A stretch of DNA of 64,000 bases, taken from the NCBI GenBank assembly GCA_021604405.1, contig BQJA01000006.1, positions 1 to 64,000 of the forward strand. The letters run 5' to 3'. Made by a program: the position numbers and the translations under genes. Positions 62,406-64,000 of the stretch are shown here, piece after piece. The notes under the pieces were generated by a model. It was not told where the DNA came from and did not search any database. It saw only the letters and a program-made list of their open reading frames with translations. Source of the DNA: Nitrosomonas sp. (GTDB lineage Bacteria; Pseudomonadota; Gammaproteobacteria; Burkholderiales; Nitrosomonadaceae). The number at the start of each line of letters is the position of its first letter. Position 1 is the stretch's first letter.

Positions 62406-62939
62406 TTAATCATGTGATACATAAATTAGATCATCGACAGGGAATCTCATTTGTTGAGCTTTTTTTACCAGTTGTTCTACTAAGAATGTATCCAGGTTGG
62501 GTAATCGTGCTAGGATCCATAGGTAGGAACGATTTGGTCCAGCTACCAAAGCATATTGATAGGATGCTTTGTCCAGTGCCAGAATATTATAGCCGCCATA
62601 AAAAGGACCAAAGAAGGATACCTTTAATTGTCCAATGTATGGTTCTTCAACAAAGTAGGCCTTTCCAACAGCTTCTTTCCATTCGTTTTTATCTGGATTG
62701 TAGCCACGATTAATTACTTTGACCCCACCATCATCGCGTAAACTGTATTCGGCAGTGACCCGGCTCAAACCACGTTCGAAAGAATGATCCAGCCGGGCAA
62801 TCTCATACCATTTGCCTAGATACCGGTCCAGCTCAAATCCGCTGATTGGTTCTACGCCTTTTGGCGCGATGGTGCAAGCACTTAAAAAAATGAGTATTAC
62901 GATAAAAATCAGAATGTTATTGTAGTTGTGATTTTTCAT
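62406..62939 (-). CDS. blc: Outer-membrane lipoprotein lipocalin (Blc)
   Basis: The 177-aa lipocalin has a signal peptide with lipobox (LIFLSACTIAPKG), the lipocalin G-x-W motif in YLGKWYEIARLDHSFERGLS, TAEYSLRDDGGVKVINRGYNPDKNEW, and the late YALVAGPNRSYLWILARLPN. Blc is anchored in the outer membrane and binds lysophospholipids and fatty acids, probably for membrane maintenance. The length and motifs are normal. Confidence 0.9.
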   Translation of the reverse strand: MKNHNYNNILIFIVILIFLSACTIAPKGVEPISGFELDRYLGKWYEIARLDHSFERGLSRVTAEYSLRDDGGVKVINRGYNPDKNEWKEAVGKAYFVEEPYIGQLKVSFFGPFYGGYNILALDKASYQYALVAGPNRSYLWILARLPNLDTFLVEQLVKKAQQMRFPVDDLIYVSHD

Positions 62940-63237: not shown

Positions 63238-64000
63238 TCAATTAACTTTCGGGCTGGCGTCACGAAAAACTGCATCAATCGCAGGTGCATCGAAACGGTA
63301 TTCACGATTGCAAATTTCATCATTAATTATCACTTCGCCCTGTTCCTGTAAAATCGCGTTGACTTCTGTGCGGCCAAGCGAGCGCAACATCGCATGGACT
63401 TTTTCCCAGTCTTCTTCACAGCCGTGACTAACCGTTTGCGGCTCAAAAATTCGAACTTTCTCTTCTATAAAGAGGCGTGTCAGCAGTTCTTCTGTCGGCA
63501 AAGTAAATAGTTCCTCGTCTGTTACTGTTGCGGCAAGCGCTTCGATACGTGCCCAACCGTCAGGATCCTGTTGATCGGCGGTGGGTAGTTTCTGCAGTAA
63601 CAGGCCAACTGTTGCGCCGGTTGAGGCAGTGAGAAAAAGGCGTGCGTTGAGCTGGTCGGACTGTTTCAGATAATGTTCGAAAATTTCGCTGATATTGTTG
63701 CCTTCAAGAGGTACAATACTTTGATAGGTTTCATGCATTGATGCCAGGTCCAGTGTTAACACCAGTTGGCCGTGGCCAAGCAGATCCGGTACTGGCTTGA
63801 GTTCCATCATTTTGGAACACTTGGCCATTCCACGAATTTTCAAGTTCTCATTGCAATCGATGACGAGTAATGAAATTGGGCCGTTTGCTTTCAACTGTAT
63901 CGTCAATCGTCCCCGTTGTTTAAGGTTGGTGCCAAACAACAGTGTTGTTGCCGTCATTTCACCGAGAATCTGGATAACTGGCGTTGGATAGTTGCGCCTG
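63238..64000 (-). CDS. hslO: 33-kDa redox chaperone Hsp33, 5' end outside the window
   Basis: This gene runs off the right edge. The visible part covers most of the protein: LLFGTNLKQRGRLTIQLKANGPISLLVIDC, GHGQLVLTLDLASMHETYQSIVPLEG, YLKQSDQLNARLFLTA. The ORF-track start at 63957 is internal; the frame stays open to 64000 and reads ...YPTPVIQILGEMTATT, as Hsp33 does. The zinc-switch tail is unusual: the usual C-x-C is replaced by H-G-C (SHGCEEDW) and the usual C-x-x-C by D-E-I-C (NDEICNREYRF), so only two of four cysteines remain. The redox switch may be lost or altered. Confidence 0.85.
   Translation of the reverse strand, partial: RRNYPTPVIQILGEMTATTLLFGTNLKQRGRLTIQLKANGPISLLVIDCNENLKIRGMAKCSKMMELKPVPDLLGHGQLVLTLDLASMHETYQSIVPLEGNNISEIFEHYLKQSDQLNARLFLTASTGATVGLLLQKLPTADQQDPDGWARIEALAATVTDEELFTLPTEELLTRLFIEEKVRIFEPQTVSHGCEEDWEKVHAMLRSLGRTEVNAILQEQGEVIINDEICNREYRFDAPAIDAVFRDASPKVN

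Follow-up and report, generated by a model that had tools for sequence, protein, structure and literature searches.

In Escherichia coli, Hsp33 holds zinc by four thiolates; upon oxidation two disulfides are formed and zinc is freed, and clients are bound by the linker once it has unfolded. This unfolding has been described as the activating step, being both necessary and sufficient, and a single linker-destabilising mutation was enough to activate the E. coli protein (PMC4735815). Release of zinc alone does not activate Hsp33 (PMC10598452). The four zinc cysteines have been called 'absolutely' or 'completely' conserved (PMC4735815, PMC8282892). An exception was reported for Chlamydomonas reinhardtii (Segal and Shapira 2015, cited in PMC7423844), whose Hsp33 reportedly lost one cysteine together with zinc binding and is more responsive to mild heat or oxidation.

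By analogy, the Chlamydomonas protein appears to be the nearest precedent for the Hsp33 described here. Both have a natural, incomplete cysteine set, and the algal protein is said to have lost zinc binding; it is eukaryotic and lost one cysteine, whereas here one is lost from each pair and the loss is fixed across a bacterial clade. In the open-access literature no description of a subfamily with two cysteines (two-Cys), nor of an experiment on any member, was found, and a search for literature on Hsp33 in Nitrosomonas or Dechloromonas returned nothing relevant.

Cysteine positions in the Nitrosomonas protein

The gene lies at the edge of the window, i.e. the whole stretch of 64,000 nucleotides of Nitrosomonas DNA that was analysed. 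The coordinates given in a first-pass annotation were correct, although the first approximately 31 residues fall outside, as the start codon is located 92 bases past the window edge and the frame read from the window alone lacks them. The complete protein passed the family cut-off of Pfam PF01430 (HSP33) over its full length (8.5e-70; 235.7 bits versus a cut-off of 21.4; residues 4-268, profile positions 2-273 of 273). On the NCBIfam HslO equivalog PRK00114 it scored 215.3 bits, which is below the 244-bit cut-off; the five two-Cys proteins scored all stayed below it with 189-222 bits, and a four-Cys relative reached 277. A search of the 3.74-Mb genome identified Hsp33 as a single copy (1.0e-69, 0 internal stops), which ruled out a compensating four-Cys copy.

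Homology to E. coli Hsp33 (1i7f) extends over the full length (3.6e-48). The register of the redox domain was taken from phmmer and MAFFT alignments to the E. coli protein, both of which are gap-free there. In the first pair, VEFKC-T-C-SRER of E. coli stands opposite VSHGC-E-E-DWEK of the window protein, and in the second pair HC-D-Y-CGN stands opposite ND-E-I-CNR. Instead of the canonical CxC and CxxC, the protein thus carries C-E-E and D-E-I-C, with two of the four cysteines left (Table 1). The alignment confirms the earlier proposal that two zinc cysteines are absent, one per pair, and also its reading of the second pair as DEIC, where C265 is replaced by Asp258 and C268 is kept as Cys261. 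The first pair had been read as HGC with the first cysteine lost, which is the wrong register: the equivalent of C232 is kept and C234 is the one replaced, by Glu.

Table 1. Positions of the hslO gene, its switch residues and neighbouring genes at related loci
Feature	Location	Strand	Remarks
hslO/Hsp33, whole gene	63238-64092 of contig	minus	284 aa; sole Hsp33 frame
hslO/Hsp33, part inside window	63238..64000	(-)	C-terminal 253 codons + stop, about nine tenths of gene
Redox-switch domain, residues 218-270	63283..63441	(-)	folded in AF2 model; resembles 1xjh (NMR, E. coli domain)
Cys225 (TGT)	63418..63420	(-)	equivalent to E. coli C232; present in 65/65 non-redundant subfamily sequences
Glu227 (GAA)	63412..63414	(-)	replaces C234; subfamily: E, Q, R, K, D, N, M or G
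Asp258 (GAT)	63319..63321	(-)	replaces C265; subfamily: Asp or Asn only
Cys261 (TGC)	63310..63312	(-)	equivalent to E. coli C268; kept in all subfamily members
ArsC/YffB-family (thiol reductase-like) gene, Rhodocyclales	L117 3605-4001 and 72 other loci (e.g. L110-L180)		0-83 bases from hsp33
HypB/CobW-like and partial HypF genes	L001 2352-3473, 3484-3795	(-), (-)	Pfam
HypB/CobW-like and partial HypF region	L232 26-1951	(+)	recognised by eye
YaaA-like-facing loci, family f99	L192 2471-3247; L229 928-1723; L230 2869-3643	(-), (-), (-)	

Compared with E. coli Hsp33/HslO (PF01430; 1i7f, 1hw7; redox domain 1xjh), the protein shares the three-part architecture, the predicted fold and the equivalents of C232 and C268. 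It differs by Glu and Asp at the equivalents of C234 and C265 and by the loss of the Cys4-zinc site and of both known disulfides. As C234 and C265 are replaced, neither a C232-C234 nor a C265-C268 disulfide is possible. It had been suggested that the usual zinc-held switch cannot form, and this still stands: a Cys4 zinc centre is impossible with two cysteines left, and the canonical switch, consisting of zinc release and two disulfides, therefore cannot operate.

Distribution and origin of the two-Cys form

A frameshift or sequencing error, which had been named as a possible refutation, was excluded: C-x-[EDNK] and D-[DE]-x-C occur in each of the 41 sequences read from this genus, the window's own included, which come from independent assemblies and have in common the same two cysteines and Asp. 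The gene is present in 45 of the 61 Nitrosomonas genomes, has no match in the remaining 16 and is absent from all genomes sampled in the three remaining genera of this family, and it is thus dispensable there. Genome G080 of the same genus contains two full-length Hsp33 matches (C67:4975-5769 and C8:4607-5398); its contamination estimate is 3%, and the second match could be an extra copy or due to a mixed bin.

Within the same order, three further families (f19, f21 and f42) have the two-Cys form, and the remaining families examined have four cysteines. Members identified by name are Dechloromonas, Azonexus, Azospira, Azovibrio, Uliginosibacterium and Candidatus Accumulibacter, and the Thiobacillaceae are also among the holders, as are Thiobacillus sp. 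UBA3361 and Parasulfuritortus by name. A class-level search added two families of other orders (f99 and f142) with Asn instead of Asp258, and no additional two-Cys family was found among the 30 best matches of a phylum-wide sample. The final alignment comprised 151 sequences with two cysteines and 146 with four (E. coli among them), and no three-Cys intermediate was found in it. All sequences are from Pseudomonadota and the sample is biased to the best matches of the two-Cys profile and Pfam, with weak or distant Hsp33s under-represented, so that these counts are not a census. The four-Cys proteins of other Burkholderiales and Gammaproteobacteria belong to the same family and are likewise mostly single copy, but they have all four cysteines in 146 of 146 sampled sequences and occupy a separate region of the tree.

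For this tree, the N-domain and linker of 77 sequences were analysed by maximum likelihood, with the whole redox domain excluded. All 39 two-Cys sequences were found on one side of a single branch (SH-aLRT 99), which corresponds to one state change; the tree was built quickly, contains some long branches and has SH-aLRT as its sole support measure. The two-Cys Hsp33s are one old clade of single origin that lost the Cys4-zinc site. With the same caveat of a quick tree, both cysteine losses appear to have a single origin that predates the spread across these families. Convergent losses were also considered and are unsupported by the N-domain and linker tree, in which SH-aLRT was the only support. 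The window protein shows C225, Asp or Asn at position 258, C261, a residue other than Cys at position 227 and a place in the one clade, and thus belongs to this subfamily.

Median dN/dS within the genus was 0.08 in the N-domain, 0.11 in the redox domain and 0.17 in the linker, based on few pairs with unsaturated dS. For each of the two cysteines both TGT and TGC are used within the genus, so their constancy is one at the protein level. The redox domain is under purifying selection within Nitrosomonas. Decay, pseudogenisation or sequencing error might be considered, as the 16 genomes without a match show that loss of the gene is possible. Nevertheless, the low dN/dS, the intact frames and the occurrence of the same trait in about 150 independent sequences of one deep clade make this explanation highly improbable.

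Conserved residues, predicted fold and the proposed switch

Conservation was assessed in 65 two-Cys sequences with less than 80% identity to each other. Of 284 columns, 21 are invariant, and in the redox domain these are C225, G240, G252 and C261 only. Position 227 is mostly Glu and otherwise any of the residues listed in Table 1. In most members Glu227 and Asp258 lie beside both cysteines and an acid (Asp or Glu) is found at position 259. Position 228 is almost always Asp or Asn; the four-Cys forms have Ser, Thr or Asn at this site, which lies at a helix start.

The acidic neighbours of the cysteines might suggest a remodelled metal site, in which C225 and C261 bind zinc together with Asp258 and/or Glu227, the acid at 259 or water, or in which the two thiolates form a linear Cu(I) site. 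The position of Glu227, Asp258 and the acid at 259 near both cysteines in most members counts in favour of such a site. However, position 227 is Arg or Lys in several lineages, so that the ligand set is not conserved, two families have Asn at 258 combined with Gln, Gly or Lys at 227, and the residue at 228 would rather be a helix cap than a ligand, given its four-Cys counterparts. A remodelled site is possible, but less probable than the two-thiol switch proposed below. The same substitutions at 227 and 258 weaken a plain exchange of carboxylates for cysteines (a C2-D-E zinc site), and Asp228 was rejected as a new ligand in favour of the helix cap. A role of C80 as a third cysteine partner was dismissed as well, because it is not clade-specific, is common in four-Cys forms and is missing from some variants. 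Across the aligned subfamily, the potential ligand set varies and the two thiols are constant.

An AF2 model built from an 11-row alignment reached a mean pLDDT of 91.2, with a folded redox domain at about 87-93. Foldseek matched it to Hsp33 of T. maritima and B. subtilis (1vq0 and 1vzy, TM 0.84 and 0.83), with a further match to 1xjh, the redox domain of the E. coli protein. According to this model, the Hsp33 fold with N-domain, linker and C-terminal switch domain is retained. AF2 is blind to metals and oxidation, and the model is thus evidence of fold and not of state.

As both cysteines are invariant and the possible ligand positions 227 and 258 are variable, a reading based on two thiols is preferred. 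It is proposed, with about even confidence, that the subfamily is a linker-unfolding holdase that lost the Cys4-zinc centre and has a zinc-independent two-thiol switch. The ATP-independent holdase function would be retained and released through linker unfolding. In the resting state, the switch domain might be kept closed by the protein fold and by polar contacts near Asp/Asn258, which would replace zinc. C225 and C261, neighbours in the canonical zinc site, would serve as the two thiols; their oxidation might be a C225-C261 disulfide between the two halves, or sulfenylation or glutathionylation, either of which would alter the stability of the domain and hence of the linker. With the zinc clamp gone, less heat or oxidant would probably suffice for unfolding than in E. 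coli Hsp33. The cited findings on linker unfolding, on zinc release and on the more sensitive Chlamydomonas protein were counted in favour of this reading. Points that were counted against the two-thiol switch are that AF2 cannot tell whether the domain folds metal-free and that the conserved thiols could instead serve packing or metal binding.

Redox regulation might also have been lost altogether, leaving a constitutive holdase or one that responds only to heat, unfolding or a binding partner, with the cysteines needed for packing. The loss of the zinc clamp would fit, and so would the zinc-less Chlamydomonas Hsp33 with its wider trigger (PMC7423844) and the activation of the E. coli protein by one mutation in the linker (PMC4735815). 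Two observations speak against it, namely the presence of both cysteines in 65 of 65 sequences, with just two Gly as the other invariant redox-domain columns, and the closed and folded redox domain in the AF2 model; activity without redox control is possible, at clearly lower probability. The first-pass annotation had raised constitutive activity or a different trigger. Constitutive activity is not established, the invariance of the thiols argues for a retained thiol function, and a two-thiol switch seems at least as likely as either.

The two-Cys branch probably senses stress differently, possibly in a zinc-free manner. The clade amounts to a natural experiment by which zinc, the two disulfides and simple instability of the domain can be told apart as requirements for redox-gated holdase activity. 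It also calls for caution when proteins of ammonia oxidisers, Dechloromonas/Azonexus and Accumulibacter are annotated as 'redox-regulated, zinc-binding' from homology.

Neighbouring genes

In the Rhodocyclales, hsp33 is immediately preceded by an ArsC/YffB-family gene on the same strand in 73 two-Cys loci (72 of the 79 named ones), and two further f19 genomes (L224 and L225) have it directly upstream as well. The ArsC/YffB-family gene was found upstream of four-Cys Hsp33 in none of 82 loci, 53 of which had sufficient flank. The product passes TIGR01617 (Spx/MgsR-like) and narrowly misses PRK10853 (ArsC family reductase). Such a gene does not adjoin the two-Cys gene in Nitrosomonas, f42, f21 or f99; a distant homolog (31% identity) is encoded away from hsp33 in the genome of the window. 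An operon partner conserved throughout the clade was thus rejected, since the neighbour is confined to the Rhodocyclales; its presence in that lineage was counted in favour of the two-thiol switch, and its confinement to one lineage, together with its lack next to hsp33 in Nitrosomonas, against it. The gene order appears to be a feature of one lineage, and a partnership with two-Cys Hsp33 may be taken as a lead. That in Rhodocyclales a zinc-independent two-thiol switch replaced the zinc one and is reset by the upstream ArsC/YffB-like thiol reductase is conceivable but unlikely.

Other neighbours were noted at individual loci. In two Nitrosomonas genomes (L001 and L232), a HypB/CobW-like gene lies upstream of hsp33 together with a gene whose product corresponds to HypF only in its C-terminal, Kae1-like carbamoyltransferase part, as if HypF had been split or truncated. 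In f99, the two-Cys Hsp33 gene faces a YaaA-like gene (peroxide-stress protein, recognised by eye), and a lipA-like gene is located upstream in L192 and L230. In the window itself, a gene for a probable lipoprotein of the lipocalin family (Lipocalin_2; 62406-62939, minus strand) lies downstream of hsp33.
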